Part shown: positions 2,822 through 39,393 of the stretch, in pieces
How positions within the stretch are numbered: the first letter of the stretch is position 1
Layout of the letters: each line of letters begins with the position of its first letter
Virus record (IMG/VR): IMGVR_UViG_3300045972_000807
Coordinates: 1-64,000 of that record
Strand: one strand, 5' to 3'
DNA: 64,000 bases
Origin: a virus
Notes under the pieces: model-generated
Database searches by the model: none
Told to the model about the DNA's origin: nothing
The model's input: the letters and a program-made list of their open reading frames with translations, nothing else
Program-made: the position numbers and the translations under genes

Positions 2822-4837
2822 CTAATTTGTACTGAAGTCCGGGTAGGCTACTTCAGATACTGCACTAATAGGAAAGCTAGCTGAATCTACAGGGCGGGAG
2901 AAATAGTACCCTTGCCCAAAGTCGCAGTCAATGCTCTTAAGAAGTTTGCCTTGTAAATTTGTCTCTACGCCTTCCGCTATAACCTTTAAGCCAAGCTTGT
3001 GGGCCATAACTGTTATGGCCTCGCACACAGACATATCGGGAGAGCCTTCATGCAAAGACCTTACAAAGCTTTGATCTATCTTGATGTAGTCAATGGGAAA
3101 CTTCTTTAGGTACGCCAAGCTAGAGTACCCAGTGCCAAAATCGTCCAGTGCTATCTCGATGCCACTAGCTTGTAGGCTATCGAGTTTATCCGCCACCGGC
3201 TCGTTGTTAACCATGATCGTGCTTTCCGTTATCTCTATAACCAGCGCATCCCCCGGGAGACCAAACTGATCTAGAGTTTCCTGTATCTTAAGCTGATGCT
3301 TGTCTAGAGACCGGAACTGGACTGCACTAACATTGACGCTCATCTTAAATTCCGGGTTTATTCTTCTCCAAGCAGCACATTGCCTTATGGCCTCATTGAA
3401 TATGAAGTCCCCAAGTTCCAAGATAAGCCCAGTGTCCTCAGCAACCGGTATAAACTCGGCAGGACTAATCTTGCCGTACCGGGGATGGGCCCACCGTACT
3501 AGGGCCTCGGCCTTAACAATCTTGCCTGTAGAAAGATCTACAATAGGCTGGTACTGCAAAAAGAACTCCCGGTTAGCCAAAGCACTATGAAAGTCACTTA
3601 TGATACGCGTACGCTTCAAGGAAGTTTCTTGCATAGCTGAGTCGTAGTAGCAGTACCTGTTGCGCCCGCTCTTTTTCGCCTCGTACATTGCTTGGTCTGC
3701 GTTCTTAAACAAGGTGGGTATGTCAACGGCATCTTTGGGATGGACTGTTATCCCTATGCTAGCTGAGACATACGCTGTGTCAGCCCCTAGCTTGAAACCT
3801 TCACTAAGGACCTTAAGTACGTTAGAGGCCACAAGGCCGGCATCCTCAGGATTAGCTATGTTATAGATAACCACGACGAATTCGTCTCCGCCTAACCGGC
3901 CAACGCAGTCTGTATTCCTAACGCAAGTCTTCATACGCGCAGCTGCCTCTACCAGAAGCCTGTCCCCTGCTTGGTGGCCGTGTGCGTCGTTAACTTCTTT
4001 GAACCTGTCAAGGTCAACAAACAATAGGCCAACCAGCGAAGTACTTCTTCCCGCAGCCACAACGTCTTCCAAGATGTTGTAAACTCTAGCTCGGTTAGGT
4101 AGTCCCGTAAGGCCGTCAAAGTAAGCACCCTTCCAGTTGGTTAAGACATTCTCGTAGTCAAGCGTGAAGCTTATAAACGCTAAAGAGGACAGATAAACCA
4201 AGGGCCCTATAAGGGGAAGATCAAGATACATACCATAGGCAAACACGTCTATCATCTGACCTGCAAAATACCAAGATAAGCAAAATAGCAGTATACCTGA
4301 CGTATGGTCCTGCTTGATTAGGTAATACTTTACTAGGTAGAACATCTGTACCAAGATAATAAAAAGCATTATTGCTTTAAACATAAGGTACTCGGGAGTT
4401 AGGACTCCCGTTGGGGATGCTGCGATGTAGTTGTAGATAGCTACGTCGCGCAGATGCATGTCTGGGCTAAACGCCTCTATGTTACCTATAGAGAGAAAAG
4501 CAAAGCACACTGCTAAGGATCCCAGAGCATAAGAAAATCCCAATGTCTTGGTATTACCACTTTTGGTGTACAGAGAGACGAACCTTAGCATCAACAGGTT
4601 AAGCAGCCCGCTGATAAAAATGCTGATAGGTAGAATGTGCCCAAACTCTTGCTGTGTGACAGCCAGCAAGAGATTCCTGTGGGTTAACCCAGACACTACG
4701 CCTACCGCGCACATTGCGGAGAACGTAAGGTTCATTTTGTCTGAGTGCCTTTGAATGCCTATCCTAGCATGGGTTAGGGAGGCATAAGCGCAAACACCTA
4801 TAAGAATATAGGTTATGCTAGTCATTATTGCGATCAT
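2822..4837 (-). CDS. Membrane GGDEF-EAL protein (c-di-GMP synthase/phosphodiesterase)
   Basis: A 671-residue protein. About seven hydrophobic segments (residues 3-225) form a membrane sensor region that I cannot assign to a named family. The GGDEF domain follows, with DLDRFK (275-280), an RNTD inhibitory site (307-310) and an intact GGDEF (316-320). The EAL domain has EAL (444-446), Asn502, the EITES glutamate (535), DDFGTGYSSL (565-574), Lys586 and Glu622, that is, every metal and catalytic residue expected in an active phosphodiesterase. It should make and/or degrade c-di-GMP at the host inner membrane. Its start lies 3 bases after the stop of the nuclease gene and the ribosome-binding site AAGGAG is inside that gene, so it is coupled to the morphogenesis operon. 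Such enzymes are common in bacteria but unusual in phages. Confidence 0.95.
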   Translation of the reverse strand: MIAIMTSITYILIGVCAYASLTHARIGIQRHSDKMNLTFSAMCAVGVVSGLTHRNLLLAVTQQEFGHILPISIFISGLLNLLMLRFVSLYTKSGNTKTLGFSYALGSLAVCFAFLSIGNIEAFSPDMHLRDVAIYNYIAASPTGVLTPEYLMFKAIMLFIILVQMFYLVKYYLIKQDHTSGILLFCLSWYFAGQMIDVFAYGMYLDLPLIGPLVYLSSLAFISFTLDYENVLTNWKGAYFDGLTGLPNRARVYNILEDVVAAGRSTSLVGLLFVDLDRFKEVNDAHGHQAGDRLLVEAAARMKTCVRNTDCVGRLGGDEFVVVIYNIANPEDAGLVASNVLKVLSEGFKLGADTAYVSASIGITVHPKDAVDIPTLFKNADQAMYEAKKSGRNRYCYYDSAMQETSLKRTRIISDFHSALANREFFLQYQPIVDLSTGKIVKAEALVRWAHPRYGKISPAEFIPVAEDTGLILELGDFIFNEAIRQCAAWRRINPEFKMSVNVSAVQFRSLDKHQLKIQETLDQFGLPGDALVIEITESTIMVNNEPVADKLDSLQASGIEIALDDFGTGYSSLAYLKKFPIDYIKIDQSFVRSLHEGSPDMSVCEAITVMAHKLGLKVIAEGVETNLQGKLLKSIDCDFGQGYYFSRPVDSASFPISAVSEVAYPDFSTN

Positions 4838-33576: not shown

Positions 33577-34263
33577 CTAACCCAAGGATTTAACGACTTG
33601 CTCAGACACGTCTCGGTATTGTGCCATCATGTAGTCAGCCATGCCCTTCTTGGCTTGCTCTACGGTAACACGGAATTCCTTGAAGTCTTCCTTGTCCATA
33701 CGGCCCTTAGCAGACTCTTGGACTAGCGTCATGCTAGTAACCAGCTGAGAAGCAATGTCCATGTAGGAAGGGCGAATGGTGCGATCAACGATAGACTGGC
33801 CTAGGTTGGCTTTGTCCTTCAACACCTGTAGGTCGCCCAGCAATTCGCGTACCGTGCTTACCAAGGTATTGAAACCGTAGATGCCTTTAGTGGATTTTGA
33901 TTCGCGGATGTGATGCTCGGCCATAGGCAGAACTTCGCATACGGATTGGATGAGTGCCTTAATGATTAGGCTGGACGCTCCATCTGCGTTGCCCATGCTA
34001 ATCATTTCTACAATCGTATCCGCCTGCGTACCGAACCGTGAGTTCAGAGCCATGACCACTTCCGGGTCTTTTATGGCTACAGGTTTGTTTCCGTTAACCG
34101 ACACCAAGGCAAGCTCAGTGCCTGTCTTGGTCTTCAGCTTAGTGGTTGGTTTCTTCTTGAGCTCTTTTGTCTTAGTGTCCACGTCCTTTGCCTTGATAGC
34201 ATCGGACTTGGGCACACGGAGTTTAGGCTTAGGAGCCTGACTAGGTTTAGTTGCAAATCTCAT
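33577..34263 (-). CDS. Hypothetical protein with Lys-rich N-terminus
   Basis: A 228-residue protein. The first ~50 residues are a Lys/Pro/Thr-rich unstructured segment that could bind DNA or act as a leader; the rest is helical. No motif recognised. It is in the operon of probable virion or ejected proteins. Confidence 0.65.
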   Translation of the reverse strand: MRFATKPSQAPKPKLRVPKSDAIKAKDVDTKTKELKKKPTTKLKTKTGTELALVSVNGNKPVAIKDPEVVMALNSRFGTQADTIVEMISMGNADGASSLIIKALIQSVCEVLPMAEHHIRESKSTKGIYGFNTLVSTVRELLGDLQVLKDKANLGQSIVDRTIRPSYMDIASQLVTSMTLVQESAKGRMDKEDFKEFRVTVEQAKKGMADYMMAQYRDVSEQVVKSLG

Positions 34264-34268
34264 TTTGT

Positions 34269-35045
34269 TTAGTGCTTTACCAACACACGGAACTGGTTAG
34301 GCAACTCCTGGATTAGCATGTAGGAATCTTGGAACATATGGCTGCGGTCGCCTACTTCTTCGTACCCAGCTTTGTCGGCTACGTGCCGTATGTCATTGAA
34401 AAAGTTAGTCAAAGCGCCCTTGGGATCCTTGGGATTGTCTTTGACCTTAAAGAGATAGTTCTCTTCATGCGTAGACGGCTGGGTAACCTTGTAGCACTCA
34501 AGGTAGAACATGTCTGAGTAATAGCCGATAGGACTTTGGGCATCGTAATGCGGGTTAGCGGCTTCTTTGAACTCTTTAGGCAGTGCTCGGCACAGGCGTG
34601 TAAAGAAGTCCATACCTGTTACAGCTTCTACCTTGATCCTTTTAGCTTTAACCTTGGACTTTACCTTGTCCACTGGGTAGGAAGCCACCACGGTTATAAG
34701 CTCTTCGCCGTAACCATTGAAGTTGCTTACGACCCCTTTTATCATGGGCATAACGTGGGCTCTTGTAAACACTAAACCGGTGTGCAACTTACCCAGTTTG
34801 TGAGCAGAGAACTCCTTAGGAGTCTTGTCCTTAGCTTCCCTTGTGAGATTAAGGTTAGGCATCTCACCGTAGATGTTCCACACTATACCGATAACCTGTT
34901 TTACCATCAGGCCTTCAGACTTACCGTCCCAGCCTTCGTTAACGGCCAACCGCTTTACTCGGGCTTCTGACACCTTGGTAGTCTCAAGTATCGCATGAAG
35001 CCAGCAAGGCATCTTCCACGGGGGTACGTATGGTTTAATAGGCAT
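34269..35045 (-). CDS. Hypothetical protein with MPIK N-terminus
   Basis: A 258-residue basic protein of mixed structure, with no recognised motif or membrane span. The N-terminus MPIKPY belongs to the MPIK/MSIR group found in many neighbours. It starts 3 bases after the stop of the preceding gene. Confidence 0.65.
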   Translation of the reverse strand: MPIKPYVPPWKMPCWLHAILETTKVSEARVKRLAVNEGWDGKSEGLMVKQVIGIVWNIYGEMPNLNLTREAKDKTPKEFSAHKLGKLHTGLVFTRAHVMPMIKGVVSNFNGYGEELITVVASYPVDKVKSKVKAKRIKVEAVTGMDFFTRLCRALPKEFKEAANPHYDAQSPIGYYSDMFYLECYKVTQPSTHEENYLFKVKDNPKDPKGALTNFFNDIRHVADKAGYEEVGDRSHMFQDSYMLIQELPNQFRVLVKH

Positions 35046-35048
35046 GAT

Positions 35049-35435
35049 TTAGTTGTCCTGATCTAGATAGTCCATAACAGCTTGGTACTCTTTTGGATTA
35101 GAGACCTTGCGGAATTGTAGTGCGTAGTCATCGTTGTCTTTGACCATCTGCAGTATTGAGTCTTGCGCCCCAAGCTCTTGCATTAGCTTGAGTGCTTCCT
35201 GCTCGTTACCTTTGGTGTACTCTTTAAGGAGCCCCTGGAGTAACCTGTTAGCCTTAGTTGACATTGTTTTAACTACGTTCCTAGGCGCCGGGTTACCGTC
35301 AGCCATATTGAAAGTGGAACGCCGCTCGCTAAGGATGTCTTCCAGAAGCATTGTCTTGTCGTACGCTTTAACTATAACCGAAGGCAAGGTATAGCGGTGC
35401 ATGTTTGCCATAACCCCATACTTCCGAATGCTCAC
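35049..35435 (-). CDS. Hypothetical protein with MSIRK N-terminus
   Basis: A 128-residue helical protein. The GTG start overlaps the stop of the Nudix gene (GTGA), so the two are translationally coupled. An internal ATG (MANMHR, codon 9) is an alternative start. Function unknown. Confidence 0.6.
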   Translation of the reverse strand: MSIRKYGVMANMHRYTLPSVIVKAYDKTMLLEDILSERRSTFNMADGNPAPRNVVKTMSTKANRLLQGLLKEYTKGNEQEALKLMQELGAQDSILQMVKDNDDYALQFRKVSNPKEYQAVMDYLDQDN

Positions 35436-35938
35436 AGTGTTCTCCCAAACTTCACCATAGCCAAAGTAGCCAACAGAAGCGCGTCTTCTGTTTTAAGAAG
35501 GTCTTCCAGGGAGTGCCATCGAACGTAAGCGTTCTCTTCCACCTCGCTACCGTCACCCACCGCCTGAGTAAATCCGCAACCGGCAAGGTCAGCGGAGAAC
35601 GAATGCGTTACCTTGGTGCACCCCTTGTAGGTGTACACTGGACCGTGGTAGGTCACAGCTTCTTCTAGCACAACAGCGCCAGCCTCTTCGCGAAGCTCCC
35701 TCAGGCAAGTCTGCATAGGAGTCTCGCCTGGGTCTATGGAGCCTGTTAAGCTACACAGCTTAGGCTTGTTTGAAACCGTAGCGCTCATCTGCTCGTGCAA
35801 TAGCAAAAAAGGACGGCCATCAGTGCGTGTTGAGTCGTAGCACAAGCAGGTGATGCCATCGTGGTTCTCAGCCAGGTACTCGATGCCTGAGTCTGTTATG
35901 TTGTGGCTGAACCAACCACCGTCGTAGAGTTTAGTCAT
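35432..35938 (-). CDS. Nudix hydrolase
   Basis: A 168-residue protein with a complete Nudix box (residues 66-88): Gly, five residues, Glu (72), seven residues, then REL-REE-AG. Nudix enzymes cut nucleoside diphosphates linked to other groups, such as ADP-ribose, NAD-related compounds, dinucleotides or mRNA caps; the substrate cannot be told here. Both ends overlap neighbours by 4 bases, upstream with the solute-binding-like gene and downstream with a small unknown gene. Confidence 0.88.
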   Translation of the reverse strand: MTKLYDGGWFSHNITDSGIEYLAENHDGITCLCYDSTRTDGRPFLLLHEQMSATVSNKPKLCSLTGSIDPGETPMQTCLRELREEAGAVVLEEAVTYHGPVYTYKGCTKVTHSFSADLAGCGFTQAVGDGSEVEENAYVRWHSLEDLLKTEDALLLATLAMVKFGRTL

Positions 35939-36750
35939 TTTGTCGCAGTACCGTAAGCAGGCAAAAGTGGAGGTTTATTTGCTGTCAAAATCTTTGAGAT
36001 TGTCTTGTCAGCCAATAGCTTGTTGGTTGCGTTAAGCATAGGCCTGTAAAGATGCATGTTCTTGCTCTTGCGGGAAAACCCAAAGCCTATGAAAGCGTCT
36101 TTTATGCTTCCTGCGTACTTAGGTCCTCTAATGCTTCCCTGCGAAAGCATAAAATCCCCAGCGTCCTTATTAACAACCACCGCGACCTTAGTTCCCTTGG
36201 GAGACATTATCAAATTCTGAAACGCCATGATATTGCTCGAGGACAATACAACGCTTTTGGGCTTTGTTTCTTGTGCTACCAAAGAGGTTGCAGAAGGTCC
36301 AAAAGAGTAAATCGTAAAGTCACTTATTTCGTCTGAACCGGTGTCCCACGTCCAACGAGAGTCGTACGGAACAAAAAAGGCGTAAGACGAACGGACGATG
36401 GGCGTTGAGGCGTAAAGGATCTTTTCGTTACGCTCTTCCGGGTCTTCGTTAACAGTAAGCGTGAAGATTACATCCGCTTCCCCTGTGGCTACAAGCTGCA
36501 TCGACTCTTGAAAAGAATGCATCTCAGTCGTACACGAAATCTTAGCTTCAGAACAGATCGCGCTCATAACCTTAACAAGAGCCCCATCTATAACCCCGTT
36601 ACTCTTATAGGAGAACGGTGGGTATACGTGAGACACTAGCTTCAGGCTTTCCGTAGGAGCAGGCTCTTTGCTCTTTACGGGTTTACCGGCCGATACTGCG
36701 GCGATTACGATCGTCAGCAGTATGCCGCTTACGGCAAGTTTCTTAATCAT
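35935..36750 (-). CDS. Exported solute-binding-like protein (SBP family 3 type)
   Basis: A 271-residue protein with a Sec signal peptide: MIKK, a hydrophobic core of about 16 residues and a VSA cleavage site. The mature part has the pattern of family 3 extracellular solute-binding domains: a first strand then YPPFSY, GxxVKVMSAIC, a stretch ending VATGEADVIFTLTVNEDPEERN, then YASTPIVRSSYAFFVP. It should be periplasmic and bind a small ligand. It overlaps a membrane-protein gene upstream by 8 bases and the Nudix gene by 4. The ATG at 36750 is preferred to a TTG at 36765. No ABC transporter genes are present, so it more likely senses or interferes than imports. Confidence 0.75.
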   Translation of the reverse strand: MIKKLAVSGILLTIVIAAVSAGKPVKSKEPAPTESLKLVSHVYPPFSYKSNGVIDGALVKVMSAICSEAKISCTTEMHSFQESMQLVATGEADVIFTLTVNEDPEERNEKILYASTPIVRSSYAFFVPYDSRWTWDTGSDEISDFTIYSFGPSATSLVAQETKPKSVVLSSSNIMAFQNLIMSPKGTKVAVVVNKDAGDFMLSQGSIRGPKYAGSIKDAFIGFGFSRKSKNMHLYRPMLNATNKLLADKTISKILTANKPPLLPAYGTATK

Positions 36751-37204
36751 ATTCGGTAGTCTCAAAGCAGATGTCGTCCACAGACATTGTGAACTGTCTC
36801 TGGGACAGAGTGGGCCACCAGCTGTACTCTACAGCAACACACCATTCACCCTGGACTATCTTGGGTATTATGGTGGAAGAAGCTACTTTGAAATCTTCAT
36901 CAACTGAGCTAAAGGACGTTCCGTCAATCAGGAGGTAGTCCTCAGGATGACCTTTACGGTACAGCTTGTGTGCAGAGCTTATGACTGACTTTTTAAGCCC
37001 CTTCATAGTCCTTACTTCCATAAGGATAGACGTATTCTGGGACTTGTTATGATTTACGATCACTATAGCCTCTTTTTGCCTGAAGGGAACCTCAGACACA
37101 AAGGATACCATCACGATGTACATAACTAGGAACACAAGGGCTGCTACGAGTAACCGTAGCACCCAACTGCTCACTTCCATTAGTCGCTCACTGAGCGTGC
37201 TCAT
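36743..37204 (-). CDS. Single-pass membrane protein with periplasmic domain
   Basis: A 153-residue protein with a short cytoplasmic N-terminus, one transmembrane segment (about residues 15-37) and a ~115-residue domain predicted outside, containing two Cys and several Trp/Tyr. It overlaps the coiled-coil membrane gene upstream by 4 bases and the solute-binding-like gene downstream by 8. The three may form one envelope complex. No family recognised. Confidence 0.65.
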   Translation of the reverse strand: MSTLSERLMEVSSWVLRLLVAALVFLVMYIVMVSFVSEVPFRQKEAIVIVNHNKSQNTSILMEVRTMKGLKKSVISSAHKLYRKGHPEDYLLIDGTSFSSVDEDFKVASSTIIPKIVQGEWCVAVEYSWWPTLSQRQFTMSVDDICFETTEYD

Positions 37205-37770
37205 TTTCCAGGCTCCTTAGTCGAGTGCTCGCTAACAGGGGCTGCTTTAGCAGCTCTTTCTGTTATAGCTTTATCGACCCATTCGGCAAATTGGGACTTT
37301 AGACCCAATAGCATAATGGCAACCAATGCCATAAATATACCCTGAACCACAGTCTTGATGAACTTTTCCTTCAAGTCCTTTTTGAGCTTCTTGTCTTCAG
37401 CTTCTTTCTCACGTTTGATCTTAAGCTGTTCAGCATACTGATCGTGATGCTCGTGATGCTCGTCTGCACTCTTTCCCGGGAGAGACTCCACAATGCTTTC
37501 GACGTGCCGTTTTATGTGCCTAACGTCGGTCTCTAGCCTAGTTAACCTATGCTCGTGTACCTGCAGAGCTGGTTGGGAAGACGCGGGGATAACAGGCGGA
37601 GTCTTGTATTCACGGCGTACAGAATGTTCCAAAGGGACAGGTTCAGAGTCTACCGGGCCATAGCCTCCCAAGGGAGCTAAGTCTGAATCTGGCGGGAACT
37701 CTTTACGCTTGTTAACGGACGGCGGCAGATCGCGCGGACGTTTAGGTTCGTTGGACTGGTCGTCGGTCAT
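37201..37770 (-). CDS. Coiled-coil, C-terminally anchored membrane protein (holin/XhlA-like?)
   Basis: A 189-residue protein: a Pro-rich flexible N-terminus (1-70), a coiled coil (about 75-100, RLTRLETDVRHIKRHV), a His/Lys/Glu-rich helix, one transmembrane segment (about 148-167) and a short charged end. The coiled coil followed by a single span recalls XhlA-type holin-associated proteins, but it could equally be a scaffold for the two envelope proteins encoded next. ATG at 37770 with GAGG 5 bases upstream. Confidence 0.55.
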   Translation of the reverse strand: MTDDQSNEPKRPRDLPPSVNKRKEFPPDSDLAPLGGYGPVDSEPVPLEHSVRREYKTPPVIPASSQPALQVHEHRLTRLETDVRHIKRHVESIVESLPGKSADEHHEHHDQYAEQLKIKREKEAEDKKLKKDLKEKFIKTVVQGIFMALVAIMLLGLKSQFAEWVDKAITERAAKAAPVSEHSTKEPGK

Positions 37771-37814
37771 AAACACCTCATAGTTTGGATTAGGCTAGCT
37801 GAGGTTTAGTTATT

Positions 37815-38027
37815 TTATCTCCCTTTGCTAACTAACTTATCGTAATCGTCCCTACAGTCTGAATCGCAAAACCTAGGATTCATACTGCCCTCCTCGATGG
37901 GCTCTCCGCAAGCCAAACAGTACCCATTGCCTACTACAGGCTTATGCAGGTTAGCTGTTATGGCGTTAAGCGCGTCAGTCATTGAGCGCTCGTAATGGTC
38001 AGTGGCTAAGTCTACAATATCTACCAT
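37815..38027 (-). CDS. TraR/DksA-like C4 zinc-finger protein
   Basis: A 70-residue protein with Cys37-x2-Cys40 and Cys54-x3-Cys58 in the pattern YCLACGEPIEE...FCDSDC typical of TraR/DksA-family proteins. The N-terminus MVDIVDLATD with Asp3 and Asp6 resembles the TraR tip that enters the RNA polymerase secondary channel. It may reprogram host transcription without ppGpp. GAGGTGA precedes the ATG. Other small C4 fingers are possible. Confidence 0.65.
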   Translation of the reverse strand: MVDIVDLATDHYERSMTDALNAITANLHKPVVGNGYCLACGEPIEEGSMNPRFCDSDCRDDYDKLVSKGR

Positions 38028-38030
38028 GAT

Positions 38031-38528
38031 TCACCTCGCAACCTTGAACAGCTCTGGTTGCCCTTTAGGGGTTATAACCTTGGTACTCTTTTCAGCACAC
38101 ATTCCGTCTTGCATACACTCGATAATGTCTCGAGTTATATGCCTAGCCCTGAGATGCTTCACAAGAATGTGAGTCTCAATAGGCACATCGCCTTGAATTT
38201 CAATCGCCGCTAGCATACGATGCCGGCCTTCATGCCCAGTGATCTTAGCTACGCCTTCAAAATTTCCTTCTTCCCAGGCCTCTGGCACGGTTACATCAAG
38301 GAAAGGAGCACCGATAGTGCCACCCGACTTTATGTGATCCACAATCAGTTGAACCTTGTCTTTTTCCCCGTCCAAAGGAAGGGCTAAGGACAAAAACACT
38401 GAAGGTTTCATCAGTACCTGCAATCCAAAGTAGTCTATATCCGCGTTATACGGAACAGCACCCCAGCCACTTTTGTTGTCGATGGTTACCTTGGCAGTTA
38501 CACGATTTGCAATTTTGGTTATTGGCAT
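38031..38528 (-). CDS. ParB/sulfiredoxin-like protein (GHEGRHR motif)
   Basis: A 165-residue protein. Residues 96-110 (KITGHEGRHRMLAAI) match the core GxxRxxA-type motif of the ParB/sulfiredoxin fold, in which this loop binds nucleotide or DNA. No helix-turn-helix is attached. The N-terminus MPITKI belongs to the MPIK-like group. Its role is unknown; nuclease or nucleotide-binding activity is possible from the fold. Confidence 0.5.
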   Translation of the reverse strand: MPITKIANRVTAKVTIDNKSGWGAVPYNADIDYFGLQVLMKPSVFLSLALPLDGEKDKVQLIVDHIKSGGTIGAPFLDVTVPEAWEEGNFEGVAKITGHEGRHRMLAAIEIQGDVPIETHILVKHLRARHITRDIIECMQDGMCAEKSTKVITPKGQPELFKVAR

Positions 38529-38562
38529 AGTTTACGCTCCCGGCAGGGATAGATAGCACTCA

Positions 38563-38586
38563 GGGAGCCTCTAAGTAGAGGCTCCC
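38563..38586 (-). terminator. Hairpin downstream of a probable virion gene
   Basis: GGGAGCCTCTA (38563-38573) and TAGAGGCTCCC (38576-38586) form a stem of about 10 bp with a very small loop. The minus-strand side is followed by TGAGTGC, not a U-run, so it may protect the 3' end of the upstream message or stop transcription weakly. Confidence 0.5.
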
Positions 38587-38595
38587 TTGAACTTC

Positions 38596-39393
38596 TTAGG
38601 ACAGACCCATCTCTTCGATTTGGGTAATAATCTTGTCCACGTACTCTTGCTGAGCCGCGTCGCCGGGGCCGGTACCGTCTTGGTTACCGTAGGCCAGCTT
38701 GTAGTAGTCCTTCATCGTGTTGATGGGTTCATTGAACACGGTGGACTTGACTCCCTTTTTGACCTTCATGTTGTCGTCTTGGTAGGCGGCAATGATGAAG
38801 TCGCTCTTGACAGTTTGCTTGCCAGCGTCAGTGATGACGATAGCGTCGCCGGTAGCGTTGGAGGACAGGCAGAATCCGTAGTCCACGTCTGTAGTCCAGG
38901 GGCCTTGTTTCACGAATGCTACCAGGTCATGGCGTTCCACGGAAGCCATGGACACACGGTTCAAACGGGGGATAGAGCCTGTGGGGCTCACGCGGGATGC
39001 TTGCACCAGGGATTCGAGATCGTCAACGCCGTTACGGGCCAGGTATTTGCCTGAGGCGCCTTCCTTCATTTCCCAGAGGGTCTTGTCATTGTTGTCCAGG
39101 TACATATTGCTGGACAGGACGCGGAAGTCCTTTGCCAGGTCAGCAATGCTTTCCACTGGGCGGGTTTCGCGGGATGCGGCAACGTAGCCAATGATTGTCG
39201 TATCGTTCAATTTGCGGAACGATGCGGCAATGGGCGCGCCGGCGCTTTTGAGAGCAGCCGTGATCGAGGCCAGGATGGACTCGCGCTTGGCGTTGGGTTG
39301 AATGGACGCAGTGACCTTAGCCAGGCTAGGGGTAACCATCTTGTATTCATGGATGGTTGCTGCGCTTACGGTGATGGGAGCTTGGTGTTTCAT
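38596..39393 (-). CDS. Probable virion structural protein
   Basis: A 265-residue protein without Cys-rich or enzyme motifs, balanced in charge and rich in Ala, Val, Ser and Thr, as common in virion proteins. It has its own Shine-Dalgarno sequence (AAGGAA) and its message ends in a strong hairpin, both features of a highly expressed gene. It is a candidate for a major head or tail component, but I cannot match it to a known capsid fold. Confidence 0.5.
   Translation of the reverse strand: MKHQAPITVSAATIHEYKMVTPSLAKVTASIQPNAKRESILASITAALKSAGAPIAASFRKLNDTTIIGYVAASRETRPVESIADLAKDFRVLSSNMYLDNNDKTLWEMKEGASGKYLARNGVDDLESLVQASRVSPTGSIPRLNRVSMASVERHDLVAFVKQGPWTTDVDYGFCLSSNATGDAIVITDAGKQTVKSDFIIAAYQDDNMKVKKGVKSTVFNEPINTMKDYYKLAYGNQDGTGPGDAAQQEYVDKIITQIEEMGLS

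Follow-up and report, generated by a model that had tools for sequence, protein, structure and literature searches.

What is the role of an exported solute-binding protein (SBP) that a phage encodes in an overlapping gene chain with two membrane proteins? The locus lies in the first 64,000 bases, hereafter the window, of an uncultured virus record of 171,756 bp. The window phage is related by its tail sheath and its SNF2 helicase to Achromobacter phage Motura and Burkholderia phages BcepSaruman and Sauron. It is a large (jumbo) myophage, and its host is probably Gram-negative. A sequence-only reading of the window had described a family 3 solute-binding pattern chained with a bitopic membrane protein, a coiled-coil membrane protein and a Nudix hydrolase (Table 1). 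It had proposed a periplasmic sensing or interference complex, possibly linked to superinfection exclusion or lysis control, or feeding the membrane GGDEF proteins of the phage.

Table 1. Positions of the genes of the chain, of the block that contains them and of the TAXI cassettes of large phages
Feature	Position	Strand	Basis
Nudix hydrolase, 168 aa	window 35432..35938	(-)	PF00293, 51.3 bits
Exported SBP-like protein, predicted family 3 fold, 271 aa	window 35935..36750	(-)	PF00497, AlphaFold2, fold matches, alignments, tree
Bitopic inner-membrane protein, 153 aa	window 36743..37204	(-)	homologs in 12 other contigs, phmmer 2e-20 to 3e-14
Coiled-coil protein with C-terminal membrane helix, 189 aa	window 37201..37770	(-)	phmmer 8e-9 to 4e-5
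Eight-gene block containing the three envelope genes	window 34264..38595	(-)	flanking genes adjacent in three of the closest relatives
TAXI cassette	L071:6370-8203
TAXI cassette	L083:5907-9001
TAXI cassette	L084:7055-9062
TAXI cassette	L085:6667-8556
TAXI cassette	L099:3048-4915
TAXI cassette	L100:2944-4942
TAXI cassette	L067:11038-13261

A phage-encoded member of SBP family 3

The family 3 pattern was borne out by a match of the protein to PF00497 (3e-10; 40.4 bits, where the curated cut-off is 26.4), which is the only PF00497 match in the whole 171,756-bp record. The ATG at 36750 was chosen as the start over a TTG at 36765, because the relatives start at an ATG with the same 8-nt overlap with the preceding gene. 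A putative Sec signal peptide is suggested at the N-terminus, MIKKLAVSGILLTIVIAAVSAG, by its basic start and hydrophobic stretch (hydropathy peak 2.08). The sequence also shows a V-S-A cleavage-type site without a lipobox, and the N-termini of the SBPs contain no lipobox.

The window SBP shares 35-38% identity with 13 phage relatives from IMG/VR, as against 20-32% with bacterial homologs. In the tree, these 14 phage proteins form a clade with a support of 100/98, in which the window protein sits on a long branch. Searches by tblastn against 50,697 phage records returned nothing significant for the window SBP, nor for one SBP and one bitopic protein taken from the contigs. Several of the bacterial homologs are orphan genes that lie outside ABC operons. 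One of them (L095:5937-6911, minus strand) has an N-terminal extension that by eye resembles a peptidoglycan-binding domain, which hints at a cell-wall link for this orphan SBP group.

As the sequence-only reading had stated, transporter families are absent: a Pfam scan of 20 window proteins gave none. In particular, no ABC permease or ATPase genes adjoin the SBP gene among these scanned neighbours, and none were recognized by inspection next to the corresponding genes of the other contigs.

Predicted fold and binding cleft

As single-sequence AlphaFold2 modelling was unusable (pLDDT 32), we used an alignment of the SBP with 12 relatives (13 sequences). The resulting model has a pLDDT of 81 and a pTM of 0.75, with approximately half of the residues at 90 or above. 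Its closest match is the glutamine-binding protein (TM 0.72; Z 25.1, rmsd 2.1 over 216 residues). The SBP is thus predicted to adopt the two-lobed, type II periplasmic binding fold, whose absence from a structure prediction would have counted against the sequence-only reading. Other fold neighbours identified with Foldseek and VIA-align 2 are the binding proteins ArtJ and LAO, and the model is equally near to sensor domains, namely a histidine kinase sensor domain, BvgS VFT2 and GluR0. A profile search with the SBP returns the same families. The predicted fold therefore fits transport and sensing alike and does not separate them.

Across the alignment of the relatives, Cys66 and Cys73 are invariant and a GPSxT loop is kept. 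Arg106 is nearly invariant and aligns with the Arg of AncQR, in the place of the carboxylate-binding Arg. At position 194, the window SBP has an Asn that is invariant in the phage relatives, whereas amino-acid binders have an Asp, which binds the alpha-amino group; the roles of the Arg and the Asp are those in LAO/HisJ. The window SBP thus lacks the Asp that marks the amino-acid-binding subgroup.

In summary, the phage protein shares with the family 3 SBPs (GlnBP, LAO/HisJ, ArtJ) and the VFT sensors (3h7m, BvgS VFT2, GluR0) the HMM match, the two-lobed fold (Z 22-25), the putative export signal and the carboxylate-binding Arg. It differs from them in being phage-encoded, in having no transporter genes in the scanned neighbourhood, in the Asn that replaces the amino-group Asp, and in its two phage-specific membrane partners.

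The SBP and two membrane proteins form a conserved unit

The bitopic protein has one N-terminal membrane segment (residues 18-36), followed by a C-terminal domain with invariant WC and CFE motifs that is probably periplasmic. It had no match in plasmids, nor in 398 genomes of the phylum, a weak negative since that search had no positive control. The coiled-coil protein has one membrane segment (residues 137-155), and all its Pfam matches are below cut-off. It matches phrog_937, the XhlA-like phage 'hemolysins', weakly (E 1e-4, 23 bits); XhlA-type proteins likewise consist of a coiled coil followed by a single C-terminal membrane helix.

In the window, the coiled-coil and bitopic genes overlap by 4 nt, the bitopic and SBP genes by 8 nt, and the SBP and Nudix genes by 4 nt. 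The RNA folding of the bitopic/SBP overlap is unremarkable. A profile scan of IMG/VR collected 12, later 13, virus contigs with close relatives of the SBP. In every contig with enough upstream sequence, 12 in all, homologs of both membrane proteins precede the SBP in the same order; the thirteenth ends just upstream of the SBP gene. Even the overlaps are conserved, the first being of 4 nt in all 11 tabulated contigs and the second of 8 nt in ten of them and of 4 nt in the other. The similarity of the window proteins to their counterparts is clear for the bitopic protein and lower for the coiled-coil protein (phmmer values in Table 1; that of the L159 coiled coil was not reported).

When the bitopic protein, the SBP and the coiled-coil protein were used in turn as the seed, the scans retrieved 12, 13 and 8 contigs, respectively, all from the same set. 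As these scans rely on sequence patterns, the counts are lower bounds, and the coiled-coil scan started from a narrower alignment. In close pairs, dN/dS is mostly 0.0-0.2 for all three genes, which points to purifying selection. Conservation of the three genes together across unrelated phages, beyond a chance neighbourhood, is thus well supported by these comparisons, and we call this unit the trio. In a limited literature search, we did not find it described.

The chain with the two membrane proteins thus stands as the sequence-only reading had it. As for the Nudix gene, it does overlap the SBP gene in the window, but it did not turn up next to the trio in any other contig, and we rejected it as a fourth member. 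Regarding the proposed periplasmic complex, the predicted two-lobed binder does belong with both membrane proteins as a conserved unit; that the three proteins form a complex, and that the SBP senses a ligand, is our inference.

Accessory cargo in the window phage, lysis neighbours elsewhere

In the window, genes 33577-34263 and 38596-39393 flank an eight-gene block that includes the SBP chain, but their homologs lie side by side in L022, L023 and L048, three of the closest relatives. The block is therefore an insertion, and the chain accessory cargo, in the window phage. No lysis genes were recognized close to the trio in the window, where its downstream neighbour is the Nudix gene. The same block harbours a gene for a small DksA-like zinc-finger protein (phrog_54; 37815-38027, minus strand). 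Elsewhere on the minus strand, the window codes for two membrane proteins with GGDEF domains, one with a GGAEF signature that is possibly inactive (1278-2555) and a GGDEF-EAL protein with intact motifs (2822-4837). Among 22 other related records searched, two (G034 and G036) have a GGDEF domain.

The 13 other contigs are fragments, several of them near-copies recovered from shared metagenomes, and the tree points to about five independent lineages carrying the trio. Their gene contents differ: G608 encodes members of the terminase, portal and head-closure Hc3 families, G610 encodes a tape-measure protein together with another kind of portal, and G609 encodes a T4-like clamp loader, SbcC and a DnaB-like helicase. 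The sheath of the window phage had no match in these contigs, in a search of fragments without a positive control. On these grounds, the carriers look like at least three phage types unlike the jumbo myophage of the window, and thus at least four with it.

In all 13 contigs, holin-type and/or endolysin genes are found within approximately 3 kb downstream of the SBP gene. Two main variants occur, both on the SBP strand. The first pairs a 3TM holin (GTA_holin_3TM, phrog_3427) with an M15 endolysin (phrog_894); the second has a GH108 endolysin (phrog_315), accompanied in some contigs by a 3TM protein of phrog_1544. One contig has the 3TM protein only, and another ends inside the endolysin gene. 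A simple scan for lipobox-type o-spanins near the trio and the lysis regions, admittedly crude, gave no convincing candidate. Late genes with other functions are also found near lysis cassettes.

Parallel cassettes with an unrelated SBP family

We searched for PF00497 in 40 related virus records, some of them fragments, and in the Motura and BcepSaruman genomes. The single match is a G009 protein (L067:9817-10995, minus strand) in which the domain is combined with a membrane helix at the N-terminus and with a LysM domain in one fusion. It was rejected as a relative of the window SBP, having no BLAST similarity to it and falling outside the phage clade in the tree, and it appears to be an independent acquisition.

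SBPs of the TAXI/NMT1_3 family (PF16868) were found in six of the 43 records searched, mostly relatives. They are typically preceded by a coiled-coil protein with a transmembrane hairpin and by a small membrane protein, as in Motura, G024, Vibrio phages RYC and Va1, G025, G030 and G009 (Table 1). These TAXI/TRAP-type orphan cassettes (Motura gp276, RYC, Va1, G024, RP12/RP31) thus have the same order as the trio, membrane coiled coil, small membrane protein and exported SBP. They differ from it by their SBP family and by the hairpin before the coiled coil, and we found no sequence relation between the membrane proteins of the two types. Nevertheless, they suggest that the pairing of an SBP with a coiled-coil membrane protein is a design that recurs among phages, part of a wider pattern.

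The genes next to the TAXI cassettes vary. That of RYC lies beside NAD-salvage-type genes annotated as PRPP synthetase and nicotinate phosphoribosyltransferase (L099:5407-8384), and that of G024 beside genes that by reading are NMN adenylyltransferase/Nudix-like and nicotinamide phosphoribosyltransferase-like (L083:9511-12566). In Motura, the genes after the SBP gene carry the annotations homospermidine synthase and glutathionylspermidine synthase (L071:8268-11093).

Proposed role of the trio

Our favoured reading, which we hold tentatively and with a little less than even confidence, is that the trio is one phage envelope module that senses a ligand late in infection and most likely acts on lysis. 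The SBP would capture a small molecule in the periplasm. This ligand would probably be carboxylate-bearing, since the Arg and the GPSxT loop are conserved while Asn replaces the Asp that binds the amino group. The loaded SBP would dock on the periplasmic domain of the bitopic protein, from which the signal would go to the coiled-coil protein, and the latter would intervene late in infection, most likely by timing lysis or by inhibiting it. We favour lysis as the output because the module is directly upstream of holin and endolysin genes in other phages. This neighbourhood is circumstantial evidence for the link with lysis control that the sequence-only reading had raised, and the trio of the window phage itself, which is not beside lysis genes, counts against it. 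In that jumbo phage, the module would act in trans from its accessory insertion.

To our knowledge, the antiholin RI of phage T4 has neither an SBP fold nor separate membrane partners, and it differs further in binding the holin T directly. It nonetheless offers a precedent (PMC8385771): RI, a phage protein of the periplasm made with a cleavable signal, controls a holin when a signal arrives from outside, much as we propose for the trio SBP.

An unlikely alternative is that the phage SBP stands in for a host binding protein, or adds to it, and supplies a host ABC permease with an amino-acid-like nutrient, as has been proposed for cyanophage PstS; the two membrane proteins would then aid folding or docking. 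The nearest transport homologs of its family 3 fold are indeed amino-acid binders, and orphan phage SBPs have precedents in the TAXI proteins, in the TRAP solute receptor-like proteins of Ralstonia phages RP12/RP31 (PMC5468394) and in the pstS genes carried by cyanophages (PMC3429862). Like the trio SBP, cyanophage PstS is a phage-encoded periplasmic binding protein, but it is a host-derived phosphate binder of another SBP family, whereas the trio is a three-gene unit with membrane partners that lies by lysis genes in other phages. Uptake would not need the two phage-specific membrane proteins to which the SBP is strictly linked. The Asp-to-Asn replacement in the amino-acid site, the orphan status of several bacterial homologs and the position of the trio at the end of the late genes also argue against this function.

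Superinfection exclusion or envelope remodelling, in which the trio would block the entry of other phages or mask a receptor, with an SBP lobe that binds either a component of the incoming phage or an envelope protein of the host, seems quite improbable to us. Prediction places all three proteins in the membrane or the periplasm, and their occurrence in unrelated phages is what is expected of a moron-type trait. However, the location by lysis genes does not fit, the conserved cleft residues suggest the binding of a small molecule, and known exclusion families were not matched in Pfam or PHROGs.

We doubt even more that the trio takes a direct part in lysis, for instance by partnering the holin or by taking the place of the spanin step, with the SBP fold serving as a scaffold rather than a sensor. 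Its position next to holin and endolysin genes, the weak XhlA-like match of the coiled coil and the dearth of o-spanin candidates are compatible with such a role. The SBP nonetheless has no lipobox or outer-membrane anchor, the lipobox scan was crude, the binding-cleft residues are conserved and the trio is kept away from lysis genes in the window phage.

Finally, it is very improbable that the SBP feeds the membrane GGDEF and GGDEF-EAL proteins of the phage: there is a precedent in Salmonella, where the periplasmic arginine-binding protein ArtI acts upstream of the diguanylate cyclase STM1987 (PMC8846402), and the window phage does encode both GGDEF proteins, but these are 30 kb from the SBP, their N-terminal parts are membrane regions of several helices in which no periplasmic domain is evident, and none of the 13 other trio contigs, which are fragments, has a GGDEF domain, so that we rejected a general GGDEF link.

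Returning to ligand sensing that acts on lysis, its boldest form would be a so far undescribed receptor system shared by unrelated phages: a Venus-flytrap protein would detect a periplasmic small molecule and, by way of two phage membrane proteins, decide when or whether the cell is lysed. We consider this rather unlikely as it stands, and we know of no phage in which a small-molecule receptor controls lysis. Phage-borne binding proteins are usually filed singly as nutrient genes; here, one of them belongs to a fixed three-gene envelope unit. The position of this unit beside lysis genes in most carriers makes for a testable proposal, namely that phages may gauge a chemical cue outside the inner membrane before they lyse their hosts.
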